Shown here one piece after another: positions 9,924 to 26,259 of a stretch of DNA of 33,526 nt. Position 1 is the first letter of the stretch, and each line of letters opens with the position of its first letter. The notes beneath the pieces were generated by a model. That model was not told the DNA's origin and did not search any database. It saw only the letters and a program-made list of their open reading frames with translations. Where the stretch lies: assembly GCA_017533425.1 (NCBI GenBank), contig JAFXIE010000089.1:1-33526 (forward strand), given 5' to 3'. The DNA is from Clostridia bacterium (GTDB lineage: Bacteria; Bacillota; Clostridia; Oscillospirales; QAMX01). Position numbers and translations under genes: made by a program.

Positions 9924-11093
9924 ATGCAGTTGGATCTCGGAGAAATCATACGGGAACTGCGCCGGCGCCGGGGGTGCACGCAGGAGACGCTGGCCAAAGC
10001 CATCGGTGTGTCATCGCAGGCGGTGTCCCGATGGGAGGCGAACGGCGGATACCCCGATATGGAAACGCTTCCCCTCATTGCGAATTACTTTGGGGTCTCC
10101 ATTGATTATCTTTTTGGGTACAATAACGAGAGAGCGCTGCGCATCGACGAGGTGGTATCCAGAATCGAAACGATGAATCTGCAGAACAACGGGGTGGATG
10201 TCAATGTAGATCAATGCATTTCTCTGGCGCGGGAGGCCATGATCGAGTTCCCGGGAAATGAAAAGGTGATGCTGTGCCTTGCCTCCGTGCTGTATAACGC
10301 GGGATATGTCCGCCGGGGAGAGGTACACCGGACCGATGCGGAGGGCTACGACGTTTTCGATGCCGAGCGTCACCGCAGCTATCCGGAATGGGCCGAGGCC
10401 ATAGCACTATACGAAAAACTGCTGCAGACGGCGGATCCCGGGGAGCTGCGCAACCGGACGGTGAACGAGCTTTCTCAGCTGTATCAGAATGTGGGCGCCC
10501 ATGACCGTGCAAAGAGACTTGCCGAAACGGCACCGAGCATTCGCGGCTCACAGGAGTTTTTGAAAATGCGTTCGGCGGACGGAAAAGCTCGGGCTGTTGC
10601 CTGCGGAGAGGCGTTGCTCAAAACCGCCGGGGCGTGCTCGGAGCTGATGGTGCAGACCGTGCTGGGCAGCAAGAAGAATATGACCCCGGCGGAGAAGTCA
10701 CAGAGCCTGCGCGGTGCGGCGGGGATCATTGACCTCGTTTGCCCCGACGGAAATTGCGGCCACTATCACGACTATCTTTCTCAGCTATATATGCTGATCT
10801 CGCTGTATTTGTGGTTGGATGGGGAAAAGAATGCGGCCTTTGATGCGCTTTACGAAGCAATTTGGCATGTTGACCGGTTTTGTGCATATCTGGATGGAAA
10901 CGGTGACTATACGGCGCCGCTGGTACGCCTGGTTTCCCATAAGCCGAAAGGAAGAGGCGATTGCCCGCGCCCTACGAGACGCAATCTTTTGGCCGATTGG
11001 CCCGGCTGGTGTGTGCCGGAGGCGAAGACCGTGAAGGCGGAGATGCAGGCCGATCCCCGGTGGAATGCGTGGGTTGCAGAATTGGAGAAATAG
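9924..11093 (+). CDS. XRE-family regulator with TPR-like domain
   Basis: The 389-aa protein starts with a Cro/CI-type helix-turn-helix (about 5-60): 'IIRELRRRRGCTQETLAKAI', 'VSSQAVSRWE' as recognition helix, and 'LPLIANYFGVSIDYLFGY'. The rest is helical with TPR-like pairs ('ISLAREAMIEFPGNEKVMLC', 'EWAEAIALYEKLL'), a layout used to sense a peptide or partner. The start at 9924 is chosen by GGAGG 8 nt upstream and the domain boundary; a longer open frame back to 9570 overlaps the SGNH gene and is not real. It is 116 bp upstream of the ABC exporter gene and may control it. Confidence 0.85.
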   Translation: MQLDLGEIIRELRRRRGCTQETLAKAIGVSSQAVSRWEANGGYPDMETLPLIANYFGVSIDYLFGYNNERALRIDEVVSRIETMNLQNNGVDVNVDQCISLAREAMIEFPGNEKVMLCLASVLYNAGYVRRGEVHRTDAEGYDVFDAERHRSYPEWAEAIALYEKLLQTADPGELRNRTVNELSQLYQNVGAHDRAKRLAETAPSIRGSQEFLKMRSADGKARAVACGEALLKTAGACSELMVQTVLGSKKNMTPAEKSQSLRGAAGIIDLVCPDGNCGHYHDYLSQLYMLISLYLWLDGEKNAAFDALYEAIWHVDRFCAYLDGNGDYTAPLVRLVSHKPKGRGDCPRPTRRNLLADWPGWCVPEAKTVKAEMQADPRWNAWVAELEK

Positions 11094-11209
11094 GTAAGAT
11101 TGTTTGGAAAAATCATGAACGAAAAGCAATACGGCAATGGAGATTGCTATAAAATAAGGTGTCGGGAAAGCAAAATGGTATCAGATTTTTCAAATGAAAG
11201 GTAAATACA

Positions 11210-12994
11210 ATGAAAAAGACCTTTAATATTGCGAGGAACATTGCCTGGCTCTGCAAACCGTATTGGAAATACGGCAGGCTTTTCTTTATCCTTTCGATGG
11301 TTCTGTCTGTCGGTCTGGCTCCTTTAAGCGATATTTTGTATGTGTATTCGCCGGAGATCATTGTGGACTTGCTGAACGAAGAAAAAGCATTTGGATATAT
11401 TGCTTTTATCGCGCTGGCGTTGGCCGGCGGTAACGTAGCATGCAATATTCTGCCAAAACTATTTAATCCCTATTTTGCAAAAAAACAGACAGAAATCGAT
11501 TTGGCTGTGGGAAAAGATATATATAAAAAAGCGACTGAGATTGACTATCGCTATGTGGATACCCCCAAATATTACAACGATTATTCTTGGGCATTAAATG
11601 AATATGCGAACCAGACGAACCGAACCTTTCGCTTTGTGAAAAAATTTCTCTCTTCCCTTTTGAGCGTGGTTGCGCTTGGAACAATTGTCATCGCTGTTGG
11701 CCCGTGGCTGTTGGCTATCGAGATCATTCAACTGCTGCTCCAGCATTTTTTGATTGATAAAAGAAATAAAGTCAATCTCAAAATGAAGGATGAGTTGGTT
11801 CCTATTGACAGACGGATTTCCTACTGTCACAGGCTTTTTTATTTGAAAGACTATTCGGCGGATATTAAATCGACGCCCCTCAAAGAATGGGCCTTTGCGG
11901 CATATGATACTGCCGGAAAAGAAAAGATTGCAACTAAATACCATTTTTCCAAGCGAACGGCAGCGATAACCATTGGACAGGAAGCTCTGTTTATTATCAC
12001 CGAGTTGTGTATTATTCTCTATTTGATTCAGAGCGTTGCTGCGGGAAACATTGCGGAAACAGGTCTGTATGTAACCATGCTTCTGTCTTTCTATCGGTTA
12101 GATTTCAAATTGTATGACCTGATTCAGCTTGTCGACGAAGCTGCCGATATCTCTATGAATGCAGAAAAGGTTCGCAATTTCTATAATACGGACTCTGAAA
12201 TTGAAAAACCCAAACAGCAGGTTAATCATCATTCAATAGGCGAAGGTAATTTTTCCATCGAGTTAAGAAATGTTAATTTTTCTTATGAAAGCTCGGAGTT
12301 TTCTCTTTCTGATATCAATCTTACGATTCATCCGGGAGAAAAAGTAGCAATAGTCGGAGAAAATGGTGTTGGCAAATCCACGCTTGTTAAATTGCTGATG
12401 AGATTGTATGATGTATCGGCCGGAGATATATTGATTAACGGAGTATCCATTAAAGATTATGCGGTGAATGATCTCCGGCAACATATTGGCATTGCTTTTC
12501 AAAACGCAAATGTGTATGCGATGACATTCGCGGAAAATCTGTCGTTGTTCGGCGCAACGTCTGTTTCGGAACTGGAGAAATTGGCGGGAGATTTGGACTT
12601 GTTACCTATTCTGGCGAAGAATCAAGCGGATTATAATTCTGCGATAACAAAGGAATTTGACGAAAACGGTATCGTTCTGTCAGGCGGCGAAGCACAGAGA
12701 ATTGCTTTGGCGCGGCTAATGACCCGCAATTGGGGATTGCTGCTTTTGGATGAACCGTCCTCTGCGCTGGATCCGATAGCCGAATACAGAATGAACCAAC
12801 ACATTATAAATACGGCAAACAAAGCCACAACAATCGTTGTGGCGCATCGCTTGTCCACAATCCGGAAGGTTGATAAGATCGTCGTAATGGATTGCGGCAG
12901 AATCATTGAAACCGGTTCACATGATGACCTCATGTCAATAAAGGGAAAATACTACGAAATGTTTTCAAAGCAGGCGGAGAACTATGTGAGCTAA
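11210..12994 (+). CDS. ABC exporter, fused permease and ATPase
   Basis: The 594-aa chain has an N-terminal six-helix exporter domain (about 20-310) and a C-terminal ATPase: Walker A 'GENGVGKST' (about 383-391), Q-loop 'IAFQNANVY', signature 'LSGGE' (about 490), Walker B 'LLLLDEPSSALD' and H-loop 'VVAHRLST'. All catalytic residues are present. There is no peptidase C39 domain, so it is not a leader-cleaving bacteriocin exporter. The intracellular 'YRYVDTPKYYNDYSWAL' is typical of Clostridial exporters of unknown cargo. It would function as a homodimer or with a partner not seen here. The gene is markedly AT-richer than glnN or dinB, suggesting acquisition. It ends at the terminator at 13035-13077. 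Confidence 0.9.
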   Translation: MKKTFNIARNIAWLCKPYWKYGRLFFILSMVLSVGLAPLSDILYVYSPEIIVDLLNEEKAFGYIAFIALALAGGNVACNILPKLFNPYFAKKQTEIDLAVGKDIYKKATEIDYRYVDTPKYYNDYSWALNEYANQTNRTFRFVKKFLSSLLSVVALGTIVIAVGPWLLAIEIIQLLLQHFLIDKRNKVNLKMKDELVPIDRRISYCHRLFYLKDYSADIKSTPLKEWAFAAYDTAGKEKIATKYHFSKRTAAITIGQEALFIITELCIILYLIQSVAAGNIAETGLYVTMLLSFYRLDFKLYDLIQLVDEAADISMNAEKVRNFYNTDSEIEKPKQQVNHHSIGEGNFSIELRNVNFSYESSEFSLSDINLTIHPGEKVAIVGENGVGKSTLVKLLMRLYDVSAGDILINGVSIKDYAVNDLRQHIGIAFQNANVYAMTFAENLSLFGATSVSELEKLAGDLDLLPILAKNQADYNSAITKEFDENGIVLSGGEAQRIALARLMTRNWGLLLLDEPSSALDPIAEYRMNQHIINTANKATTIVVAHRLSTIRKVDKIVVMDCGRIIETGSHDDLMSIKGKYYEMFSKQAENYVS

Positions 12995-13034
12995 ACGAGA
13001 CTGACATTGCATCGGCAATGGTTAATATCGGCAC

Positions 13035-15190: not shown

Positions 15191-15273
15191 GTGTGCTCTC
15201 TCCTGTCATTGGGAATTTGAAAAATGGGGAGGAGGATCGTTTTGCAAAATAAACATCCTCTTCTTGACTTTGT

Positions 15274-15302
15274 ATTATACTGCGCAGAAGGAAAAATGTC
15301 AA
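15274..15302 (-). promoter_or_regulatory. glnN promoter
   Basis: Minus strand TTGACA (15297-15302), 17 bp, TATAAT (15274-15279): both boxes match the sigma-A consensus. The start site is about 75-80 bp upstream of the glnN ATG. Confidence 0.85.
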
Positions 15303-15399
15303 CGAATTGGCGGGAAATCCGTCGCCGGGCGGAAAAGCTTCTGCCGCGGAGCGGTTCAAAATAGATAAAAGAAACTTTAAAACAGATAATAACTGATTA

Positions 15400-15428
15400 T
15401 TGAGCAGGCGGTTATGATATGATAAAAT
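15400..15428 (+). promoter_or_regulatory. AraC-gene promoter
   Basis: TTGAGC (15400-15405), 17 bp, TAAAAT (15423-15428). The inverted repeat ATAAT-AACTG-ATTAT (15386-15400) abuts the -35 and could be a regulator site. Confidence 0.6.
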
Positions 15429-15452
15429 ATAAGCTGCAAAGGCGGTGAAAAC

Positions 15453-16376
15453 ATGGAACATATTACGGTCAGCACAAAAAACTATCGAAAAAAAGTAGCC
15501 CTTGCCGCGTGCGAAGAGAACGGGCCGCTGGACGATATCGATATTAAGGATAAACACTTTCTGCTGATTGTGCTGACAAAGGGAAAGATGGAGTTTGCGG
15601 TCGGAGATCAGAGAATCGCCGCCAATGCGCCTGCTTTTTTATGCTTTGATGAGCTTGAAAATCCCCGGCTGCTTTCAAAAACGGAGGCGCAGTACACCTG
15701 CGTTTATTTTCATCCGACATTTTTGAATATCAATATGACCTTTGAGTTTCTGCGCTCCAGCCAGTATGACGACATAGCCTCCGTCCACGATATGTTTATG
15801 CTGCGGCCCTTCATGGATAAGACCTATGTCATCCCCATCTCGCATATCAGCACCGAGCGGATTGCCCAATCCGCCGACTATATGCGCCAGGAGCTGACCG
15901 AGCAGAGGGACCGCTACTGGTCCTGCCGGGGACGCACCTACTTTATGGAGCTGATTATCGCCCTGGAGCGCATGTACGGCCTGAACGGCTACGGTTGGCA
16001 GCACCGGCAATCCGACAATGCGCCCATCATCAAAAATCCCCGGCTGCGGGACGCGGTGCTCTACATTGAGGAGAACTACCGAAAGGACATTGCCCTTTCG
16101 GATGTCGCCGCCAACGCGCGCATCAACCATACCGATCTGAACGCGCTGATGAAGGGAGAGCTTGGGTGCACGGCGATGGAATATTTGAAAAAATACCGCA
16201 TCGCCATGTCCAAAAAGCAGCTGGCCTTCACCGATGTGCCCATCAAGGATATTTCCGACATGGTCGGCTTCAAAACGGTGCAACATTTCAACCGGGTTTT
16301 TAAGGAAATCACGGGCACAACCCCGGCGGTATTCCGCAGAACGGCGGTGGAAAAGCGCCGCACGGAGATCAAATAG
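15453..16376 (+). CDS. AraC-family transcriptional regulator
   Basis: The 307-aa protein has an N-terminal cupin-like sensing region (about 15-100: 'HFLLIVLTKGKMEFAVGDQR') and a C-terminal double helix-turn-helix (about 195-295: 'LRDAVLYIEENYRKDIALSD', then 'PIKDISDMVGFKTVQHFNRV' with 'FKEITGTTPAVFRR'), the classic AraC signature. The ligand is unknown. The ATG has an AAAGGCGG site upstream. Its position between glnN and the lipoprotein array suggests it may control one of them; this is inference only. Confidence 0.88.
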   Translation: MEHITVSTKNYRKKVALAACEENGPLDDIDIKDKHFLLIVLTKGKMEFAVGDQRIAANAPAFLCFDELENPRLLSKTEAQYTCVYFHPTFLNINMTFEFLRSSQYDDIASVHDMFMLRPFMDKTYVIPISHISTERIAQSADYMRQELTEQRDRYWSCRGRTYFMELIIALERMYGLNGYGWQHRQSDNAPIIKNPRLRDAVLYIEENYRKDIALSDVAANARINHTDLNALMKGELGCTAMEYLKKYRIAMSKKQLAFTDVPIKDISDMVGFKTVQHFNRVFKEITGTTPAVFRRTAVEKRRTEIK

Positions 16377-16451
16377 AGCTGCGCCGCATCGCGGCGGAAA
16401 GTCCCCGCTCCGGCCCGCAAAAATTTTCTTTGCAGCCCCCCGGAAAACCCA

Positions 16452-16480
16452 TTGACGCGGAGGGGTATATACCTTATAAT
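16452..16480 (+). promoter_or_regulatory. Promoter of the lipoprotein array
   Basis: TTGACG (16452-16457), 17 bp, TATAAT (16475-16480), about 70 bp upstream of the first lipoprotein gene. It is the only strong promoter I see before the terminator at 24615-24653. Confidence 0.8.
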
Positions 16481-16551
16481 TTGATTATGAAGCAAATGCT
16501 CCTACAACACATTCGGCGACGATATTTTTTACCGAAAGGCGGGAGAGAAAA

Positions 16552-17328
16552 ATGAAAAAATCTGTACGCATTTTGACCGGCGGCGCGCTGCTGATAATGC
16601 TGTTGCTGCTGCCCGCCTGCACGGATGCGCCGCGGGAGGAGACGGTGGAGTTTGCCATCTTTAACGAAAGCACCCGCCTCTCCGCCACGGTGACCTACAG
16701 CGAAGATGAGCCCGACCGGGCGGAATGGCTGACGGTCCGTAACCTCGATTCCGGAAGGGAAATGCACCGTTTCCGCCTGGCGGACAACCGCTGCTTTACC
16801 ACGCAGGGAATCTTCCTTGAGGACATCAATCTGGACGGCATGCTGGATATCCTCCTGCCCCACAGGAGGGATGAGAGCGCGGTGTATTTTCAGGCCTTTA
16901 TGTGGAATTCCGTGGGGAAGGGCTATGTCTATACCCCGAGCTTTCAGAATGTGCCAAACTGCAATGTGGTGAAATCCCTGCACCGCCTGCAGTCGACCAT
17001 AACCGAGGACGGCCAGACGGAGTACAGCCTCTGGAAATACGATACGGCGGCGCAGCGCTTTATCCGCACCCGCAGCGTTACCTGGGAGGAAAGCCATCTG
17101 CCGGGGCAGATGAGCTTCCGCGCCTACCGGTGGGAGATTTTCGGCGTCGGTGAAAAATCCGTCCTGACGGAGTATATCGAGACGGCCAAAACGGAGGATG
17201 GCATCGATCTTGCCGACTCCGCACTGCAGGGTTATGCCGGCCCGGATGCCTATTTCCGGCTGCGCGATGCGAGCTGGCAGGCCGAAGATATCTTTTGGAA
17301 AAAGGCGCTGAAGGAGGAGAAGAAATGA
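16552..17328 (+). CDS. Lipoprotein with calcium-loop/FG-GAP-like domain
   Basis: The protein has 258 aa with a lipoprotein signal peptide ending LLPAC (Cys23). Around residue 90 it has 'EDINLDGMLDILL', the D-x-N-x-D-G calcium loop typical of FG-GAP/VCBS-like repeats, then 'SLWKYDTAAQRFIRTRSVTW'. This segment is paralogous to the middle of the protein at 21637-22959 ('DISFDGAEDLLVL', 'SIWRYDSEKVQVSLVRTLCW'). It is predicted to face the outside of the membrane; no function can be assigned. The stop overlaps the next start (ATGA), so translation is coupled. It is first in the array. Confidence 0.8.
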   Translation: MKKSVRILTGGALLIMLLLLPACTDAPREETVEFAIFNESTRLSATVTYSEDEPDRAEWLTVRNLDSGREMHRFRLADNRCFTTQGIFLEDINLDGMLDILLPHRRDESAVYFQAFMWNSVGKGYVYTPSFQNVPNCNVVKSLHRLQSTITEDGQTEYSLWKYDTAAQRFIRTRSVTWEESHLPGQMSFRAYRWEIFGVGEKSVLTEYIETAKTEDGIDLADSALQGYAGPDAYFRLRDASWQAEDIFWKKALKEEKK

Positions 17329-18695
17329 AGAAGTTTTACGTGTTTTTAACGGTGTGTCTCGCGGCGCTTCTCCTTTGCGGCTGCCATACCCCGCTTTCTG
17401 AAACTGCGAAGTATGCAGATGGTGAGGTCACCGTGACCTACAGCATCCGGACGAATATTTCCTATCCCGAGCACTGCCCCGATGTCCACTATGCCGACGG
17501 GTATGCAAAATACAGCACCTCGGCCGATGGGGAAGAGGAGGCATGGAATTTCATTGACACCCTGGGAAAAAAGGTTTTCTCCCGGGATTATTCGGAAATT
17601 ACCCTCATTTCCTACTCCGGCGAGGCTGCCATCCGGGAAGCGGACGGCAAAACCTATGTGATCGATGTTGACGGTGGGCGCGAGCGCTGCACCACCTGGA
17701 AATTTGACGATTATGCCGCCCTCTTTGACACCGCGAAGAGCAACCTTCTGGATCCCACGCCCCTTCCGGAGGGCGCGCTGCTCGTAAGCCGCAGCTACGA
17801 AGGCCTTGCGGTCTTTGCCGTCGCGGCAGAGGAGGAGAAGGACGGCAACAATTGCCTGCTCGGATTCTGCGATGCAGAGGGAAAGGTGGTCATCCCGCCC
17901 TTTATCCCCTGCCGCATGGACGCAGAGAGCTATTTCCTCTCCATGTATGAGGATCGGGTGGTCATCAACGACGGCGGCCGCATGGGAATCGTTGAGATCT
18001 CCCGCCGCCCCACAGTGCAGCCGACGCCGCGGCCCGCATCCGGCAAAGGGCTCACCGCCACCGGAGAATCCGGCGGCAAAAAGGTCACCCTGACCTATGT
18101 TTTGGATACGGATATCTATCATCCCTGGCAGCTCGGTTCGGCGATGTATTTCCAAAACGGCTATGCCGCGCTTTTCCATCACCACGACGAGGACAATAAC
18201 GATTTTCACGATACCGGCACCCTTTGCGGCGGTGAGAACCTGATGGACACGGAGGGAAAGCTTCTCTTTGATCTCGAATATGAGAGACTGACTGTCTTTG
18301 CGGAGGACGGATACGCGGCGGCGCAGACCAACAGCGGCCAGTATGTGCTCGTTGACCGCAACGGCGAGGAAAAGCTCTCCTCCGAGCAGGAATACTGGGA
18401 GAGGGCGCGTGCGCTGGAGGACCTTGCCTTTGGCGGCAAATATCCGGATATTGATCCGGAGCATAAGCGGGTCTTCAGCCTGCCCGAGAACGGCTTTTCC
18501 GTATATGCGGTAAAAAGTCCCGAGCGTATGGGCTACAATTCCTACCTGCTGGGTCTGCTGGATGCCGATGGCCAGGTGGTCATCGAGCCCTTCATTCCCT
18601 GCACCATCGATTATTACCTCTATCTCAGAGAGGGCTATACCATCATCAACGATAACGGCTATATCGGTATTCTTCAGCTGAAGATTGAAGAATAA
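17325..18695 (+). CDS. Lipoprotein with two tandem WG-repeat-like units
   Basis: The protein has 456 aa, signal peptide ending LLCGC (Cys20). Two homologous halves (about 25-226 and 243-456) are joined by a Pro/Thr linker 'RRPTVQPTPRPASGKG'. Matching landmarks: 'VTVTYSI' and 'VTLTYVL' at the beginning; 'CDAEGKVVIPPFIPC' and 'LDADGQVVIEPFIPC' at the end; 'GRMGIVEI' and 'GYIGILQL' as last strands. The short 'D-x-x-G-K' beta units resemble WG (KWG) repeats. Single copies of this unit occur at 20192-20932 and 23388-24608. The ATG at 17325 follows AAGGAGG and overlaps the previous stop; 10 extra upstream codons are unlikely to be used. Confidence 0.8.
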   Translation: MKKFYVFLTVCLAALLLCGCHTPLSETAKYADGEVTVTYSIRTNISYPEHCPDVHYADGYAKYSTSADGEEEAWNFIDTLGKKVFSRDYSEITLISYSGEAAIREADGKTYVIDVDGGRERCTTWKFDDYAALFDTAKSNLLDPTPLPEGALLVSRSYEGLAVFAVAAEEEKDGNNCLLGFCDAEGKVVIPPFIPCRMDAESYFLSMYEDRVVINDGGRMGIVEISRRPTVQPTPRPASGKGLTATGESGGKKVTLTYVLDTDIYHPWQLGSAMYFQNGYAALFHHHDEDNNDFHDTGTLCGGENLMDTEGKLLFDLEYERLTVFAEDGYAAAQTNSGQYVLVDRNGEEKLSSEQEYWERARALEDLAFGGKYPDIDPEHKRVFSLPENGFSVYAVKSPERMGYNSYLLGLLDADGQVVIEPFIPCTIDYYLYLREGYTIINDNGYIGILQLKIEE

Positions 18696-18722
18696 GACAG
18701 CCACGAAAAAGGAGTAACCGCA

Positions 18723-19457
18723 ATGAAAAAGATTGTTTCGCTTACCCTCTGCCTTGCACTGCTTTTCTGCCTTGGCTCCTTCTCCGGCTGCGTCGGTTCT
18801 GCAGATTTTGCAGAGGGCGATGCCGTCGTGCTCTCGAAGGTCAGCAAAGCGGAGGCCGCGCAGGTGCTTTACGGCACGTACAACGGAAAGACGGTCACCG
18901 TCCGGTCGCCGCGCTTTACCGGGATTCCCGTGGCCTCCGTCTACAGCTACAAAGAGGCTTACTGTTTTATGAACGGGACTGTCATTTTCAATGCCGCCCT
19001 TGCGGACGGCGCCCACCTCTTTCAGGTGAACAAAGACGGAAAAGTGCTTGACCGGGATTATGAGCTTTCCGGAGACCGTATTCCGGCGGATATCGTTGCC
19101 TTAAACAGCATAACCTGCCCGGTACCGGGCGGAAATGTGCGCGGCGAGAATGCCGTGGTCGTGCAGACCGGCGAGCCCGGGGCGTATTCGCAGCATCTCT
19201 GCAATTTGCAGGGCGAGAAGCTCAGCGGCGAATATGATTCCATCGGCTATTTTTATAATGGGATCGCTCTGGTCACAAAGGACGGAAAAGTCGGACTGAT
19301 CGACGATGCCGGCGGCGTTGTGCTGGAGCCCTGCATTGCCTATGATTCCGTCTCCTATCCGCCGAAGGAGAAAATGTATGCCCCCGTTTTCATGCATGAG
19401 GATGCCTTCGTCCTGCCCATTGGCGGCGAATTTGCCATCTTTACGGTTTTGCGATAA
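18723..19457 (+). CDS. WG-repeat-like lipoprotein
   Basis: The protein has 244 aa with signal peptide 'SLTLCLALLFCLGSFSGC' (lipid Cys23), nearly identical to those of several neighbours. The mature part has short beta units such as 'HLFQVNKDGKVLDRDY', 'HLCNLQGEKLSGEYDSIGYF' and 'ALVTKDGKVGLIDDAGGVVL', which fit WG-type repeats. It has no visible catalytic motif. Its last 13 codons and the leader that follows are repeated at 20106-20201. An AAGGAG precedes the ATG. Confidence 0.75.
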   Translation: MKKIVSLTLCLALLFCLGSFSGCVGSADFAEGDAVVLSKVSKAEAAQVLYGTYNGKTVTVRSPRFTGIPVASVYSYKEAYCFMNGTVIFNAALADGAHLFQVNKDGKVLDRDYELSGDRIPADIVALNSITCPVPGGNVRGENAVVVQTGEPGAYSQHLCNLQGEKLSGEYDSIGYFYNGIALVTKDGKVGLIDDAGGVVLEPCIAYDSVSYPPKEKMYAPVFMHEDAFVLPIGGEFAIFTVLR

Positions 19458-19513
19458 AAAACGTGCCGTACATGATCCGTATCACCCGAAAGGAGTACCT
19501 ACAATGAAAAAGA
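19418..19513 (+). repeat. 96-bp direct repeat, copy 1
   Basis: This copy spans the end of the 18723-19457 gene, the spacer and the first codons of the next gene. It matches 20106-20201 at 92 of 96 positions with no indel, offset 688 bp. Confidence 0.95.
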
Positions 19514-20064
19514 CTACATGTATTCTTCTCGTTATCATGCTCTCTATCCTTTGCACAGGATGTTTTTTCACAAAGACGCAGGATGAGCGGTTTCATGCGG
19601 TACTGAAAGGTGAGCAGGAATGTATCACCGCTGATGGCAAAGCCCACAAGCTTTCCGATTTAGTGCCGCATTCTGCCAAAGCAGCATCCTACGCGCTTCT
19701 TGATATGGATGGTGACACCACAGAAGAAATGCTGGTCTCTTTTGAAGTTAACGGTTATGCTGAATATATTGTATTACTGCACGAAGAGGAAAAGACGGTT
19801 CGGGCATGGCTTTTGGGTAAGCGGCAAATGTATGATATTCGTGCAGACGGATCGTTTTGCGCCACTGACAACGCGTCAGAAACATGGTATTATAAAATCC
19901 TTTTGCATGAAGGCTTGTTGTACAAATCTGAAATTGCTTACTGTTCCCATCATGAAGAGTTATATCGTGTAAACGGTGCGCCAGCAAGCAGAGCGGTTTT
20001 TGACGAATATATCACAGAACGAGAGCAGATAGCAGCAATTGATTTTATTCCTTTGGTAAATTAA
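19504..20064 (+). CDS. Small lipoprotein with DxDGD loop
   Basis: The protein has 186 aa, with a signal peptide ending ILCTGC (Cys20). The mature part contains 'YALLDMDGDTTEEMLVSF', a D-x-D-G-D-x-x-x-E loop like those of calcium-binding or VCBS-type extracellular proteins, followed by beta strands. No function can be given. The gene is AT-richer than its neighbours and lies between two 96-bp direct repeats, so it looks like a unit inserted by, or left after, a duplication. The start is set by GAAAGGAG upstream; its leader is almost the same as that of 20192-20932. Confidence 0.72.
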   Translation: MKKTTCILLVIMLSILCTGCFFTKTQDERFHAVLKGEQECITADGKAHKLSDLVPHSAKAASYALLDMDGDTTEEMLVSFEVNGYAEYIVLLHEEEKTVRAWLLGKRQMYDIRADGSFCATDNASETWYYKILLHEGLLYKSEIAYCSHHEELYRVNGAPASRAVFDEYITEREQIAAIDFIPLVN

Positions 20065-20104
20065 GTAGCACAGGGGGACGGTTCTGTGTGTTGCCTGTGC
20101 TTTC
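20054..20104 (+). repeat. 51-bp repeat, copy 1 (hairpin-forming)
   Basis: It covers the stop of the 19504-20064 gene and the spacer. It matches about 20948-20997 with one indel and very few substitutions. In this copy GCACAGG (20068-20074) pairs with CCTGTGC (20094-20100) around the GGGGGACGGTTCTGTGTG core. The T run after it is short (ttt), so a terminator role is weak; a REP-like palindromic element is possible. Confidence 0.85.
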
Positions 20105-20105
20105 A

Positions 20106-20201
20106 CATTGGCGGCGAATTTGCCATCTTTACGGTTTTGAGATAAAAAACGTGCCGTACATGATCCATATCACCCGAAAGGAGTTCCCACAATGAAAAAG
20201 A
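20106..20201 (+). repeat. 96-bp direct repeat, copy 2
   Basis: It carries an orphan copy of the last 12-13 codons of the 18723-19457 gene ('GGEFAIFTVLR' plus stop), then the same leader and ribosome site, and runs into the start of the 20192 gene. The orphan tail has no gene in front of it. Confidence 0.95.
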
Positions 20202-20932
20202 TGATCTCCCTTTTCCTCTGTCTCGCACTTCTGCTCTGCATTTGCTCGTTCTCCGGCTGTGAGAAAGATAAAACGCTTTCGGCAACGGGGGAATATAATG
20301 GGCAGAAGATTACCATGACGTATAGCGGTCCAACGGATATCCCATTTCCCTATGATATGTCCTTCATGAAGCAGGTCAATGGCTATACCGTGTTTTTCGA
20401 CTATTCAAATTATGTGGAGGGGGATATTTACACTGCCGGTTTCAATGTCATGGATGCAGAGGGAAATATCCTTTTTGATAAGGTTTATGACGGTATGACC
20501 CATGTTGATGAAGAGGGCTGGTGTGCTGTGCAAGAATATCCTCGCGAAGCGGGGGTGTATCGCATGCTCCATGTCAGCGGAGAGTCTTATGCAATCACGA
20601 AAGAAGAATTTTATAGCCATTTCGACAAAATGTATGAGGCATACGATAAATATAACGATTTTGCACAGGAACCCGACTTTCTTGCCCTTAGGGATGGTCA
20701 GTATACCGGATACCTCTACAATGGGCTTGCACCGTACGTCATGTTGAATCCGGACGAGGAAAGCCGCTACTATTATTTGATGGGGCTCTGTGATGCGGAG
20801 GGAAATATTGTGATCCCCGCGTTTATTCCTGCTTGCCACGATGTAAAAGGAGCTGTTATCGCCTTAAGCGAAGATCGTATATATTTTCAGGACTACGATA
20901 AAATCGGTTATGTGACGGTAACCAGAGAATAA
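20192..20932 (+). CDS. WG-repeat-like lipoprotein, single unit
   Basis: The protein has 246 aa with lipid Cys23 in 'SFSGC'. The mature part starts 'TGEYNGQKITMTY' and ends with 'CDAEGNIVIPAFIPAC' and 'KIGYVTVTRE', the same unit found twice at 17325-18695 and once at 23388-24608. The central part ('YEAYDKYNDFAQEPDFLALR') is its own. It is probably an exported, membrane-anchored beta-rich protein of unknown role. Codon use is more AT-rich than in 23388-24608 although the proteins are related, so they have diverged or arrived separately. Confidence 0.75.
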   Translation: MKKMISLFLCLALLLCICSFSGCEKDKTLSATGEYNGQKITMTYSGPTDIPFPYDMSFMKQVNGYTVFFDYSNYVEGDIYTAGFNVMDAEGNILFDKVYDGMTHVDEEGWCAVQEYPREAGVYRMLHVSGESYAITKEEFYSHFDKMYEAYDKYNDFAQEPDFLALRDGQYTGYLYNGLAPYVMLNPDEESRYYYLMGLCDAEGNIVIPAFIPACHDVKGAVIALSEDRIYFQDYDKIGYVTVTRE

Positions 20933-20947
20933 CAAAAAAGCGACAGA

Positions 20948-20997
20948 TGGTAAATTAAGTAGCACGGGGGACGGTTCTGTGTGTTGCCTGCGCTTTC
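20948..20997 (+). repeat. 51-bp repeat, copy 2
   Basis: It retains the 'GGTAAATTAAGTAGCAC' tail of the 19504-20064 gene, now stranded after an unrelated gene, and the GGGGGACGGTTCTGTGTG core. Its outer arms no longer pair well. Confidence 0.85.
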
Positions 20998-21019
20998 ATA
21001 TCAACCGAAAGGAGCAGCC

Positions 21020-21607
21020 ATGAAAAAGTTTCTCTTTGTTTCTCAGTGTCTTGTGTTTTTACTTTATCTATGCGCCTGTACAGGAATAAGAGAGCTTCCT
21101 GCGGCCGAGCTCCAGGAGATTGAAAATTACCTGAACGACGATGTAAACAATGGCTTTATCTGCTACAACACATATACACGTCCGGAAGAGATTTCTCTCC
21201 GGGATGTCTTTTACGACGGTGCCGGGGTTCGTCGAAACACGCCGTTAAGTGACGAAGAACGCGCATATTTCGGCGACAAAGAATACCTGCTTTCTTTTCT
21301 CAGCTACATAACCCATGAAGACGCAGAAAAAGTGGTGAGGGAAAAGCTGGGGATCCCTATGTCAGAAGTCTATACAAGCTTCGAGAAAACCGACGGATAT
21401 ATAGCTTCGTTTGACAAATTATATTATTCTCATTCGGATTGCCAGTACTGCTTTATAGAAGTGCTTTCCGGTCATACCGACGAGCTCGGGCGCTATGTTA
21501 TAGAATATCAAGACAATTCACACGAAGAACCCGATTTCAAGGCCGTTGTTACCTTGAATAAGGTTGGGGATATCTATCAATTCGTTTCAAATGCAATAAT
21601 CCATTGA
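21020..21607 (+). CDS. Lipoprotein, ELQEIEN domain
   Basis: The protein has 195 aa with a signal peptide ending YLCAC (Cys20). The mature part has 'AAELQEIENYLNDDVNNGFI', 'DVFYDGAGVRRNTPLSDEE' and, near the end, 'YVIEYQD' and 'KAVVTLNKVGDIYQFVSN'. The same landmarks occur in order in residues 24-205 of the protein at 21637-22959 (ELQEIENCLNSAEYNGFI, AFYDGAG, YEIEYIP, ATVTLIKTKTGFRFASN), so the two are paralogues. No function is known to me. The ATG at 21020 follows AAAGGAG; 13 extra in-frame codons upstream lie in the repeat spacer. Confidence 0.75.
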   Translation: MKKFLFVSQCLVFLLYLCACTGIRELPAAELQEIENYLNDDVNNGFICYNTYTRPEEISLRDVFYDGAGVRRNTPLSDEERAYFGDKEYLLSFLSYITHEDAEKVVREKLGIPMSEVYTSFEKTDGYIASFDKLYYSHSDCQYCFIEVLSGHTDELGRYVIEYQDNSHEEPDFKAVVTLNKVGDIYQFVSNAIIH

Positions 21608-21636
21608 AAAACTTACATTTCAGCAAGGGGGTTGAC

Positions 21637-22959
21637 ATGAAGAAAAGAAGTTCTTTTACCCTCTGCCTCGCGCTGCTTTTCTGCCTTTGCTCCTTCTCCG
21701 GCTGCGGTGAAGCAGAGAGCCTTTCCGCGGAAGAACTCCAGGAGATTGAAAATTGCCTGAACTCGGCAGAGTACAACGGATTTATCAACACATATTTCGA
21801 CTCGCTGGAGGAGATCGATCTCACCCGGGCGTTCTACGATGGCGCAGGCGCTGCTACCTTCGATCAGACAGGCTGGAGCGAGGAAGAAAAGGCCGATGTG
21901 TTAGCCGCCACAGGATGGGAGACCTATGCAGGTGCCGTGCTGAAGCTGACCGGAGATGCCGTTGAGAGCGTTCTTCAGGAACGGCTGGGGGTTTCACGGG
22001 GGCAGATGGCGGATAAACTTTCGGAGGCCATGCGATACGTTGAAAAATACGATGCCTATTACCTGATGCATGGAGATACAGATTACGCCCCTGTAACGAC
22101 CGTTGCAGGCCGTCGAACCGGGGATACATACGAAATTGAGTATATCCCGGAATCCTACACACCTGAGTATGCGACGGTTACGCTTATAAAAACAAAGACC
22201 GGATTTCGGTTTGCATCAAACAAAAGGACAGAGTCCGTGCATTCGGAGAAAACCTATGCGGCGGACATATCCTTTGATGGGGCGGAGGACCTGCTCGTTC
22301 TCCGGGAACGCACGGCGGCAGCACAGTACTGCTTTGCCTATGCCCGGCAGACGGAGAGTGGTCGGTATATTCAAATTGCTGGCTTTGAGGAGATCCCGAA
22401 TCCGGTACCAGATGCAGATGCCGGCGTGATCCTTGGCAGCCGATCCGGCGACGGGATCGTGAGCTATTCGATCTGGCGGTACGATTCGGAGAAAGTACAG
22501 GTTTCTCTCGTGCGCACACTGTGCTGGGAGGAGAAAACAGCCGGATGCGGATGGCTCCGGGAGGAGCAGTATTCCGCCGACGGAAGGGTGGAGACCGTGC
22601 GGGAGCAGTATGTGCCGATGATTGGCCGATATGACCTGGATATCTCTGCCCCGGAGGTGGCGGCGTATTATGCGGAAGGAAGTGAATGGTCGCTTTCGGA
22701 TGCAAAATGGACGGAAGGACTTGCCGAAGGCATAAAGCCCTGCCGGGATATGGGAGAGACCCAGGGCGAGACGCAGGAAATTGTGAGTCTCGATGGCAAA
22801 CTCTATCAGTCCTATGTCAATTCCGCCTCCGGCCTACGGTATATTTTCCTTAGCGCAGAGGAATACGATATGCAGGCCCTCTGGGACTGGATTGCAGTGG
22901 GTACGGAAAAGGAATACTCCCTCGATCTTCTCGGGAAAATGGATGAAGGCCGCAAATAA
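21637..22959 (+). CDS. Mosaic lipoprotein of three modules
   Basis: The protein has 440 aa with lipid Cys23 in 'SFSGC'. Three segments have separate relatives in this array: residues 24-205 match 21020-21607 (ELQEIEN domain); about 205-370 match 16552-17328 (D-x-F-D-G-x-x-D calcium-loop domain 'DISFDGAEDLLVL' at about 208); about 377-440 match 22994-23353 almost exactly ('LYQSYVNSASGLRYIFLSAE'). It therefore looks like a gene fusion made from array parts. The start at 21637 is chosen for AAGGGGG upstream and the signal peptide; a TTG at 21604 overlapping the previous stop is less likely. Exported and lipid-anchored; role unknown. Confidence 0.78.
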   Translation: MKKRSSFTLCLALLFCLCSFSGCGEAESLSAEELQEIENCLNSAEYNGFINTYFDSLEEIDLTRAFYDGAGAATFDQTGWSEEEKADVLAATGWETYAGAVLKLTGDAVESVLQERLGVSRGQMADKLSEAMRYVEKYDAYYLMHGDTDYAPVTTVAGRRTGDTYEIEYIPESYTPEYATVTLIKTKTGFRFASNKRTESVHSEKTYAADISFDGAEDLLVLRERTAAAQYCFAYARQTESGRYIQIAGFEEIPNPVPDADAGVILGSRSGDGIVSYSIWRYDSEKVQVSLVRTLCWEEKTAGCGWLREEQYSADGRVETVREQYVPMIGRYDLDISAPEVAAYYAEGSEWSLSDAKWTEGLAEGIKPCRDMGETQGETQEIVSLDGKLYQSYVNSASGLRYIFLSAEEYDMQALWDWIAVGTEKEYSLDLLGKMDEGRK

Positions 22960-23062
22960 TCAACAAATCATTTGAAAGGAACATATCTGCAGAATGAAAA
23001 GGATCATCTCTCTCACCCTCTGCCTTGCACTGCTTTTCTGCCTTTGCTCCTTCTCCGGCTGC
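22801..23062 (+). repeat. 262-bp direct repeat, copy 1
   Basis: It covers the 3' end of the mosaic gene, the spacer and the signal peptide of the next gene. It matches 23195-23456 at 258 of 262 positions, offset 394 bp, no indels. Weaker similarity starts about 35 bp earlier. Confidence 0.97.
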
Positions 23063-23353
23063 TCGGATGATGTTGCTGATCTTGCCGGAATATATGCTGA
23101 GGCCGTCGAAAAGCATATGCAAAATCCGGCTTCCCTACGGGATCCCGGCGAATTTCAATCTGAAACGCAGGAGCTCATTACCCTCGGTGGACAGCTCTAT
23201 CAGTCCTATGTCAATTCCGCCTCCGGCCTACGGTATATTTTCCTTAGCGCAGAGGAATACGATATGCAGGCCCTCTGGGACTGGATTACAGTGGGTACGG
23301 AAAAGGTATACTCCCTCGATCTTCTCGGAAAAATGGATGAAGGCCGCAAATAA
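22994..23353 (+). CDS. Mini-lipoprotein from tandem duplication
   Basis: The protein has 119 aa with signal peptide 'SLTLCLALLFCLCSFSGC' followed by a short spacer and the same last ~55 residues as the mosaic protein upstream ('LYQSYVNSASGLRYIFLSAE', ending 'LDLLGKMDEGRK'). The gene is essentially one 394-bp tandem unit: signal peptide plus C-terminal module. It has a good AAAGGA site and an open frame, so it is probably expressed. Its only unique part is about 30 residues after the lipid Cys ('DDVADLAGIYAEAVEKH'). It may also be a non-functional by-product of recombination. Confidence 0.72.
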   Translation: MKRIISLTLCLALLFCLCSFSGCSDDVADLAGIYAEAVEKHMQNPASLRDPGEFQSETQELITLGGQLYQSYVNSASGLRYIFLSAEEYDMQALWDWITVGTEKVYSLDLLGKMDEGRK

Positions 23354-23456
23354 TCAACAAATCATTTGAAAGGAACATATCTGCAGAATGAAAAGAATCA
23401 TCTCTCTCACCCTCTGCCTTGCACTGCTTTTCTGCCTTTGCTCCTTCTCCGGCTGC
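23195..23456 (+). repeat. 262-bp direct repeat, copy 2
   Basis: It covers the 3' end of the mini-lipoprotein gene, the spacer and the signal peptide of the 23388-24608 gene. The junction falls at the lipobox, exactly where the signal peptide module ends. Confidence 0.97.
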
Positions 23457-24608
23457 GAAAAGGACGAAGCCCTCTCCGCCACGGGGGAATATAACGGACA
23501 GAAGATCACCATGACCTACAAGGTAACGGATATTAGGTATCCCTGGGATATGCGGGGGATCCACATGTCACAGGGGTATGCTATCTACTACGATCACACC
23601 TGGTTGGAGGAACATCCACATGCGAGTTACGACCCGCATGTGACAGATGCATGGAACATGATAGATCAAAACGGAACCCCTATGATCGAAGAGCCGTACT
23701 TGGACGTTATGTCCTTCAATTCGGAGGGAAAGACAGTCGCCCGAAAGCAGGACGGCACCTACGTTTCCCTGAACACCAAACTGGAGGAAACTCCCGTTTC
23801 CCAGGATGAATGGAAGGCCTTTCGCGCCGATCCGAAAAACAATCCTTTGCAGGACGCCGAAAAGATCAAAATTTTTGATGACGGCACGGGGACAAGCTAC
23901 GTGTATGAGGGGCTGGCGATTTATGTTGAGTTGGGAAGCGATAAAATTATGCGCGCCGGCCTCATGGATCGGGATAAGAACGTGATCATCCCCGCCTTTA
24001 TTCCTGTTTGCTATTCTGCCATGATCGAAACGCTGTATCTTTTCGAGGACGTGGCCTTTGTCGAAGACTATGAGACAAATAAGATCGGGATCGTTACCGT
24101 TACAAGAACCCCGACGGATACCGAAAACCTGACCGTGCTGGCGGATGAAGAAAACTATCGCGTGGAAATGACGGAAGATCAGAAATTTGTGCATTTCTAC
24201 ATCCGGGACAATGCCGGAAAGGTGCTGGAGGACAGCTGGGCTTCCGCCTCCCGCTATCTCGGCACGGAAAAGGACGGGGAAATACTGGCGGTTCGCTACG
24301 GCCTCGGCACCGTCGGCGCAGCGCGCGAGCGCTATTACGATCTGGCAGCGGGCGAGGTTTCCCGCTGGCAGGATGTCACGGTAAGGGTGGGACGCAGCGC
24401 CTATCTCTTTACGGCGGTTGAAGGGAAGCCCGTCCTGCAGGCGGCGGATATTTTTGGCTCCGATGCGCCGGTCACCATCCCGGGAGAATACCCCGATTTT
24501 GTGCTGACCCTCCTGCCGGAATCCTTTGAGATATCCGAAGGGGGCGAGCTCTCCCTTGCGTATACCCACGGCGGAGAGAAGAAAACCGTCACGGCAAAAC
24601 TGCGTTGA
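23388..24608 (+). CDS. Two-domain lipoprotein, WG-like plus C-terminal domain
   Basis: The protein has 406 aa with lipid Cys23. Residues 25-240 are the WG-like unit ('TGEYNGQKITMTYKV' to 'KIGIVTVTRT') also seen at 20192-20932 and twice at 17325-18695. Residues 250-406 form a separate beta-rich domain ('NYRVEMTEDQKFVHFYIRD', 'ERYYDLAAGEVSRWQDV') that I do not recognise and that has no copy elsewhere in the window; its DNA is GC-richer than the first part. It is last in the array and ends at a strong terminator. Confidence 0.78.
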   Translation: MKRIISLTLCLALLFCLCSFSGCEKDEALSATGEYNGQKITMTYKVTDIRYPWDMRGIHMSQGYAIYYDHTWLEEHPHASYDPHVTDAWNMIDQNGTPMIEEPYLDVMSFNSEGKTVARKQDGTYVSLNTKLEETPVSQDEWKAFRADPKNNPLQDAEKIKIFDDGTGTSYVYEGLAIYVELGSDKIMRAGLMDRDKNVIIPAFIPVCYSAMIETLYLFEDVAFVEDYETNKIGIVTVTRTPTDTENLTVLADEENYRVEMTEDQKFVHFYIRDNAGKVLEDSWASASRYLGTEKDGEILAVRYGLGTVGAARERYYDLAAGEVSRWQDVTVRVGRSAYLFTAVEGKPVLQAADIFGSDAPVTIPGEYPDFVLTLLPESFEISEGGELSLAYTHGGEKKTVTAKLR

Positions 24609-24614
24609 ACACAG

Positions 24615-24653
24615 ATCCTGCCTTCCCGGCGCCCGGGGAGGCAGGATTTTTTT
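24615..24653 (+). terminator. Terminator of the lipoprotein array
   Basis: ATCCTGCCTTCCC (24615-24627) pairs with GGGGAGGCAGGAT (24635-24647) with one T-G pair, followed by a T tract. Confidence 0.9.
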
Positions 24654-25701: not shown

Positions 25702-26259
25702 ATGAAAAAAAGACTGCTGTGCCTTGTCCTTGCGCTGGCAATGTGCCTTTGCCTCTGCGCCTGTGAGGACGATCCGGGAAGCTCCTCCCTTTCCGTCATG
25801 GATCCCGACGCGCCCTACAGCCTGACAGAGCAGGTGCATTACACCGACCCGGTGCCTTTCCCGGATAAAAACCTGGAGAAGGCTCTGCGCGAGGCCATGA
25901 AGCTGCCGGAAAAGTATGAGATCACGCCGCTGCACTGCTCCGGCCTCTCTTATCTTGACCTGCGCGGCAAGGGCATCACCAATCTGGACGGTCTGCAGTA
26001 CTGCACCGGCCTGGAGGTGCTGTATGCCGGGGATAATGAAATCGTCCATCTCGATGCGCTGGAGGGGCTGATCGATCTCTTCATCCTCGATCTCTCCAAC
26101 AACAACGTGCGCGATGTTGCCCCCATTCTGAAGCTGTCCAACCTGATGCTCATCGATCTCTACGGCAATCCCGTGGAGGATATCCTCTCGGTGCAGAAGG
26201 CCTTTGATATCGATAAGACCTATATCAGCTTCGAATATTCTCCCGTGGCCTGGGAATAA
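25702..26259 (+). CDS. Leucine-rich-repeat lipoprotein
   Basis: The protein has 185 aa with a signal peptide ending LCAC (lipid Cys21). Residues ~75-170 form three to four LRRs of the SDS22/internalin type: 'LSYLDLRGKGITNLDGL', 'LEVLYAGDNEIVHLDALEG', 'LFILDLSNNNVRDVAPILK', 'LMLIDLYGNPVED'. It is probably a surface-anchored binding protein; the partner is unknown. It is co-transcribed with the aldolase gene and ends before the terminator at 26318. Confidence 0.85.
   Translation: MKKRLLCLVLALAMCLCLCACEDDPGSSSLSVMDPDAPYSLTEQVHYTDPVPFPDKNLEKALREAMKLPEKYEITPLHCSGLSYLDLRGKGITNLDGLQYCTGLEVLYAGDNEIVHLDALEGLIDLFILDLSNNNVRDVAPILKLSNLMLIDLYGNPVEDILSVQKAFDIDKTYISFEYSPVAWE

Follow-up and report, generated by a model that had tools for sequence, protein, structure and literature searches.

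The 33,526-nucleotide (nt) contig JAFXIE010000089.1 of Clostridia bacterium (assembly GCA_017533425.1; Oscillospirales, QAMX01), which is referred to as the window, carries an array of nine lipoprotein genes (g1 to g9, positions 16552-24608 [Table 1]) between a conserved glnA and a dapA-like gene. This array is well supported as a real mosaic lipoprotein island, with nucleotide-level evidence both of shuffling and of exchange between species. Recombination at short direct repeats has added, removed, and re-fused modules and whole genes, and the whole block, consisting of the array and its regulator, has been exchanged between species. The source genome (G000, in which the window is contig C60) is fragmented and probably metagenome derived (1.9 Mb in 151 contigs, 86% complete), and it was compared with one genome from each of two other species of the genus: G001 (JAFYLV01, RGIG7208, from buffalo cecum) and G002 (JAFQKV01, RGIG1911, from goat cecum). 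A scan of the genome collection with the flanking dapA yielded no genus members beyond these two.

Modular composition of the array

All nine open reading frames lie on the same strand with gaps of at most 127 nt, and every signal peptide closes with a lipobox cysteine, which extends to 9 of 9 genes an earlier proposal, made from the letters of this DNA (the sequence-only reading), that nearly all encode lipid-anchored exports. That reading also gave the genes one promoter and one terminator. Suitable sites were found at both ends (Table 1), and a single transcript across the array is likely, promoter-like matches within the array being weaker than the site preceding g1. Scans of g1 to g9 against Pfam and NCBIfam detected no toxin gene within the array, and there was no Rfam match for RNA elements at the locus.

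The genes are composed of about six modules, and similarities among their proteins in all-against-all BLASTP comparisons are far beyond chance: g1 matches the middle of g7 (E = 7e-12), g6 matches the N terminus of g7 (5e-20), the C terminus of g7 matches g8 (2e-39), g5 matches g9 (2e-42), and the two halves of g2 each match g5 (2e-22 and 2e-19). A few modules thus recur in differing combinations, as had been proposed, and the protein encoded at 21637 (g7) indeed fuses three that occur singly in its neighbors g6, g1, and g8. The ELQEIEN domain occurs twice (g6 and the start of g7), as does the LYQSYV domain (g8 and the C-terminal end of g7), in agreement with the earlier counts. The four WG-like units previously assigned to three proteins were recovered (two in g2, one each in g5 and g9), but the count is incomplete, since g3 also has a WG repeat above the Pfam cutoff for PF14903 (25.6 bits), which is passed by g2 and g3; g9 and the WG relatives in G002 are assigned to this type only by homology to g2 and g5. 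The supposed calcium-loop domain is likewise present twice (g1 and the middle of g7), although its identity is corrected to the XAC2610-related domain NF047539, whose conserved loop has the form D-x-N-x-DG-x-x-D. The curated cutoff of 35 bits is passed by g1 (36.6) and by its G002 counterpart (54.9), and g7 falls below it (29.0). The body of g4 and the C-terminal domain of g9 (g9C) are further mobile modules, visible only by comparison with G002.

Kinship between modules, for example between the loop of g4 and that of the XAC2610-related domain, was not supported by profile comparison, in which none of the four pairs compared (A1 with A3, A1 with A4, A4 with A5, and A2 with A6) were related. 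A weak NCBIfam match of g4 to a type VI secretion system immunity lipoprotein model was discounted, since it lies below the cutoff and mainly over the signal peptide. AlphaFold models had a mean pLDDT (predicted local distance difference test score) of 46 for g7 (7 sequences) and 37 for the G002 fusion of the g4 module and g9C (5 sequences), and four module profiles, when searched against solved structures, returned nothing convincing, XAC2610 itself appearing only at an E value of 0.24.

Table 1. Features of the array and its surroundings (window positions; aa, amino acids; dS, synonymous divergence)
Feature	Position	Strand	Evidence or remark
g1, lipoprotein, XAC2610-related domain (aa 89-164)	16552..17328	+	NF047539, 36.6 bits, cutoff 35
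g2, lipoprotein, two WG-type units	17325..18695	+	PF14903, 1.3e-12, 47.9 bits; both halves match g5 and g9
g3, lipoprotein, WG repeat, shared signal peptide	18723..19457	+	PF14903, 2.2e-7, 31.2 bits; signal-peptide DNA 84-90% to g7-g9
g4, lipoprotein, DxDGD-loop module (g4 module)	19504..20064	+	47-51% identity to N-terminal half of G002 fusion protein
g5, lipoprotein, WG-type unit	20192..20932	+	2e-42 to g9, 2e-22 to g2; PF14903, 24.1 bits, just under cutoff
g6, lipoprotein, ELQEIEN module	21020..21607	+	5e-20 to g7 N terminus
g7, lipoprotein, ELQEIEN + XAC2610-like + LYQSYV	21637..22959	+	BLASTP; NF047539, 1.1e-6, 29.0 bits, below cutoff
g8, lipoprotein, short spacer + LYQSYV	22994..23353	+	86% to g7 aa 370-440
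g9, lipoprotein, WG-type unit + g9C domain (24108-24605)	23388..24608	+	BLASTP; g9C 88% identical in G002
Repeat a, 3' end of g3 + g4 leader	19418..19513	+	96% to 20106-20201
Repeat a', g5 leader	20106..20201	+	96% to repeat a; G001 g4 has the a' version of the leader
Repeat b, end of g4 + intergenic	20055..20105	+	
Repeat b', upstream of g6	20949..20998	+	b/b' hybrid present in G001
295-nt repeat, g7 LYQSYV end + intergenic + g8 signal peptide	22768..23062	+	95% to 23162-23456
295-nt repeat, g8 LYQSYV end + intergenic + g9 signal peptide	23162..23456	+	95% to 22768-23062
Tract exchanged between G000 and G001 (araC + array)	15250..24601	.	Identity and dS profiles
AraC-family regulator	15453..16376	+	Pfam HTH_18, 5e-18; dS 0.025 versus G001; no match in G002; part of exchanged tract
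Sigma-A type promoter-like site, TTGACG-17-TATAAT, 5' of g1	16452..16480	+	11/12 matches
Intrinsic terminator, strong hairpin 3' of g9	24615..24647	+	

Re-assortment and exchange among three species

G001 and G002 each hold an array in the same glnA/dapA-like slot, and the three species have three arrangements that differ in the number and type of genes. The G002 array encodes two WG proteins, a g1-like protein, a fusion that joins ELQEIEN directly to LYQSYV with the middle domain of g7 missing, and a second fusion in which the g4 module (47%) is joined to g9C (88%). That of G001 comprises g1, g2, g3, g4, one g8-like gene, and g9, without g5, g6, and g7; it is split over two contigs, which we read as adjacent, the break falling at the start of g3 within the repeated signal-peptide DNA. 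The proposal of a combinatorial locus is therefore sustained, its content varying by species in a conserved slot and its modules being re-fused. Two outcomes had been named beforehand as speaking against that proposal, a lack of similarity among the modules and an identical locus in all strains and in distant relatives, and neither occurred: the BLASTP similarities are strong, and the arrays of G000, G001, and G002 differ.

The joints can be located most precisely in the lone G001 gene between g4 and g9, which is a composite running from the b repeat at the end of g4 into b', then into the g7 signal peptide, and finally into the mature part of g8. Its joints fall in the 50-bp b/b' repeat, at the ATGAA start, and in 33 nt common to the g7 and g8 signal peptides, such that signal-peptide DNA, earlier named as the crossover point, is one demonstrated joint site besides the other two. 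Change in either direction is conceivable: deletions between b and b', between the g6 and g7 starts, and between the g7 and g8 signal peptides would convert the G000 arrangement into that of G001, and unequal crossing over would give the reverse. Overall, recombination sites include signal-peptide DNA, start-codon leaders, intergenic repeats, and conserved 3' ends; the g4 leader in G001, for instance, corresponds to the g5 leader in G000. Within repeat b, the motif GGGGGACGGTTCTGTG (window positions 20073-20088 and 20966-20981) has three more sites in the source genome with 1 to 2 mismatches (contigs C38 and C25) and could belong to a dispersed repeat.

The notion of one signal peptide for all nine genes did not survive comparison. 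Over the first 69 nt from the start codon, g3, g7, g8, and g9 are near identical (84-99%) and g5 is a cousin (74-80%), and the corresponding DNA of g1, g2, g4, and g6 is unrelated to the shared type (about 33-55%). A genome search with g9 as the query found no copy of the shared signal peptide outside the array.

Divergence among the duplicated ends points to the age of the variants. Within G000, the g7 tail differs from the g8 tail by 11%, whereas between G000 and G001 the g8 tails differ by 3%, indicating that the duplicated LYQSYV ends are old alleles set side by side and not a fresh copy. The g9C domain is a three-way mosaic, in which informative sites fall into successive blocks grouping G000 with G001, G001 with G002, G000 with G001, and again G001 with G002 (13 runs versus 30.9 expected, with none of 100,000 shuffles as low).

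In nucleotide sequence, G000 and G001 are about 80% identical on the outer sides of glnA (left) and dapA (right). The two conserved genes themselves reach 85-95%, and the tract from about 15.25 to 24.60 kb mostly reaches 96-99%. Synonymous divergence (dS) follows the same profile, with values of 0.00-0.09 for araC, g1 to g4, g8, and g9 and of 0.15 in the mosaic g9C, against flanking values of 0.41 for glnA, 0.33 for dapA, 0.75 for an anti-sigma gene, and 1.56 for an ABC gene. Protein-level constraint cannot explain this contrast. G002 has flanking proteins that are 96-97% identical, and most of its array proteins have 26-55% amino acid identity, the exceptions being the LYQSYV and g9C ends, which were exchanged more recently. 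The highly divergent allele that G002 has at this site, together with the low dS between G000 and G001, identifies the array as a hypervariable island exchanged between species, accompanied by the AraC regulator in two of three cases. A chimeric G001 assembly is unlikely, since the tract ends close to gene boundaries and its two edges are on different contigs of that genome.

Origin from a mobile element was rejected, there being no match in plasmids, viral contigs, PHROGs, or PADLOC. A phase-variation switch was also rejected: repeat analysis showed no inverted repeats of note at the array, and no Phage_integrase or Resolvase match occurs on contig C60, leaving the within-culture form of the suggested antigen-diversity-like switching unsupported.

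Elsewhere in these genomes, G001 has a second pair of WG-type lipoprotein genes at a separate locus (L020 13733-15261, contig C154), and none were found outside the array in G000. Just downstream of dapA, a leucine-rich-repeat lipoprotein gene (window positions 25702-26259) is a second fast-evolving surface gene, its protein being 58-62% identical in G001 and G002 and its neighbors 85-97%. Window positions 11001-13000 form a low-GC stretch (42%) with an ABC transporter gene amid 55-65% GC; its counterpart is about 77% identical in G001, and the G002 stretch that was read is without one.

The modules in other proteins and in known systems

Within the same order, more distantly related Clostridia have three of the modules as ectodomains of BlaR1/M56 proteins: ELQEIEN in three genomes (G075, G055, and G147), the g4 module in three (G165, G101, and G161), and the XAC2610 domain in one (G165). 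The M56/BlaR1 identity is backed by Pfam for those proteins scanned. Two further genomes have modules downstream of BlaR1 in the same operon, with a clear BlaI repressor in one. Since the background is only about 1.4 M56 genes per genome, the association is not due to chance. Their use as ectodomains in M56 proteins indicates that the modules are outward-facing domains, which very probably have a binding partner at the cell surface. The array differs from such sensors in that its modules are free-standing lipoproteins, with neither the protease nor a BlaI repressor. The view that no described system has these modules accordingly needs narrowing, as the XAC2610-related domain and the WG repeat are described families and three modules serve as BlaR1/M56 ectodomains elsewhere.

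Among these proteins is a 1,295-aa M56/BlaR1 protein (L084 5587-9474; G165, contig C11) with two g4 modules and one XAC2610-like domain on the extracellular side, whose gene adjoins a BlaI-like repressor gene. An M56 protein in L042 (G161, contig C65) seems by eye to carry an ELQEIEN-like domain immediately ahead of a g4 module. BlaR1 operons of another family (L082 6421-7815 and L083 7101-9322) have neighbors that share an N-terminal anchor and differ in their outer domains, a design as in the array.

XAC2610 itself, a lipoprotein with a beta-propeller topology like those of PliI and Tsi1, inhibits a lysozyme-like effector (PMC10933484). The array proteins resemble this XAC2610/X-Tfi family, for which PliI and Tsi1 are functional analogues, in being lipoproteins with the conserved loop, g1 and its G002 counterpart exceeding the family cutoff. 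They differ in that only the loop region is matched and in that no effector adjoins them: neither the array genes nor their direct neighbors encode a peptidoglycan-hydrolase effector.

Polyimmunity loci have genes in the same orientation with small gaps, no toxins between them, variable content, and multidomain members, and for several an adjacent recombinase, an optional feature, has been reported (Zhang et al. 2012, PMC3482391). Like heterogeneous polyimmunity loci, the array has tandem same-strand genes, small gaps, unrelated domains, multidomain fusions, no toxin genes, and content that varies by genome. Unlike them, it has lipoproteins as members, no named Imm family, no adjoining recombinase, and shuffling via signal-peptide DNA. 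Formal membership in the polyimmunity class is not claimed, because the XAC2610-related domain is the only possible link to an immunity family, no Imm family being matched, and because lipoproteins make up the array. The lpl genes of Staphylococcus aureus are one paralogous family, DUF576, in contrast to the several unrelated modules that the array re-fuses, and no lpl-type family is among the Pfam and NCBIfam matches. What the array has in common with the lpl cluster on the nuSa-alpha island is tandem lipoprotein genes on a genomic island (PMC4470592). The vpma and vsa loci of Mycoplasma also join a conserved 5' region to differing lipoprotein bodies, but they have an adjacent site-specific recombinase, inversions with inverted sites, and a single expression site (PMC2268961), none of which the array shows.

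What the array may do

We put at a little under an even chance the reading in which this chromosomal hypervariable island is a polyimmunity-like repertoire of surface-anchored inhibitor or receptor domains. The operon would display a set of alternative outward-facing binding domains, which may neutralize or capture envelope attackers, such as peptidoglycan hydrolases or the toxins of neighbors; diversity of the repertoire would be favored because attackers vary, and where other Clostridia have the domains fused to BlaR1/M56, these proteins would sense ligands of that class. Neutralization is preferred because of the link to XAC2610 and the polyimmunity-like organization of the genes. Several observations weigh against it. 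The XAC2610 match covers only the calcium-loop region, and the corresponding Protein Data Bank (PDB) profile match is not significant (E = 0.24). The array proteins have no Imm family match in Pfam or NCBIfam, and among the families of the published polyimmunity set, Imm65 alone seems to be a lipoprotein (PMC3482391). No LXG toxins were found in the genus, so that the genus's own LXG toxins were rejected as partners. All three genomes are fragmented draft assemblies, and fusion to M56 sensors is equally compatible with sensing without neutralization.

Pure sensing is the main rival, although we regard it as unlikely: the surface lipoproteins would sense or capture ligands, such as nutrients, cell-wall fragments, or antibiotics, and feed signal systems, their modules being general binding domains outside the cytoplasm, with variation that tracks ligands and no role in immunity. 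It accords with the recurrence of three modules in or just downstream of BlaR1/M56 proteins over so low an M56 background and with an AraC regulator that travels with two of three arrays, but no M56 gene lies near the array, the genus's own M56 proteins bear other ectodomains, and the XAC2610 family is known for inhibition and not for sensing (PMC10933484). Neutral churn, in which tandem lipoprotein duplicates recombine via common signal-peptide DNA and are shuffled without a selected function, would account for joints at short direct repeats, which ordinary recombination or slippage during replication would be expected to produce; it is made improbable by genes that are all open with lipoboxes, fusions that are in frame, nonsynonymous divergence below dS in most array comparisons, and a block whose transfer between species left clean edges close to gene boundaries. 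Diversification of surface antigens under antibody pressure from the ruminant host or under phage pressure, as in variable lipoprotein families, appears the least probable of these. Gene content that is hypervariable in a fixed slot, exchange between species, the surface location of lipoproteins, and the cecal origin of the related genomes from goat and buffalo all fit it, yet there are no switch elements and no adjacent recombinase, the genes form a codirectional operon instead of one expressed copy, and three modules also occur outside the genus within sensor proteins.

The neutralization reading has a fuller form, which is more tentative and on balance doubtful: a previously undescribed envelope-side polyimmunity in gut Clostridia, in which a repertoire of lipid-anchored inhibitors would be reassembled through homologous recombination at common signal-peptide DNA, the operon traded between species, and the domains re-used on BlaR1-type sensors. 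The array provides a natural, nucleotide-level example of modular surface-protein evolution, with crossovers in signal-peptide and intergenic DNA and with arrays moving between species. If its modules inhibit enzymes that attack the cell wall, gut Clostridia would have a membrane-anchored equivalent of polyimmunity loci, and several unnamed domains that also occur on BlaR1-type sensors would gain candidate functions.

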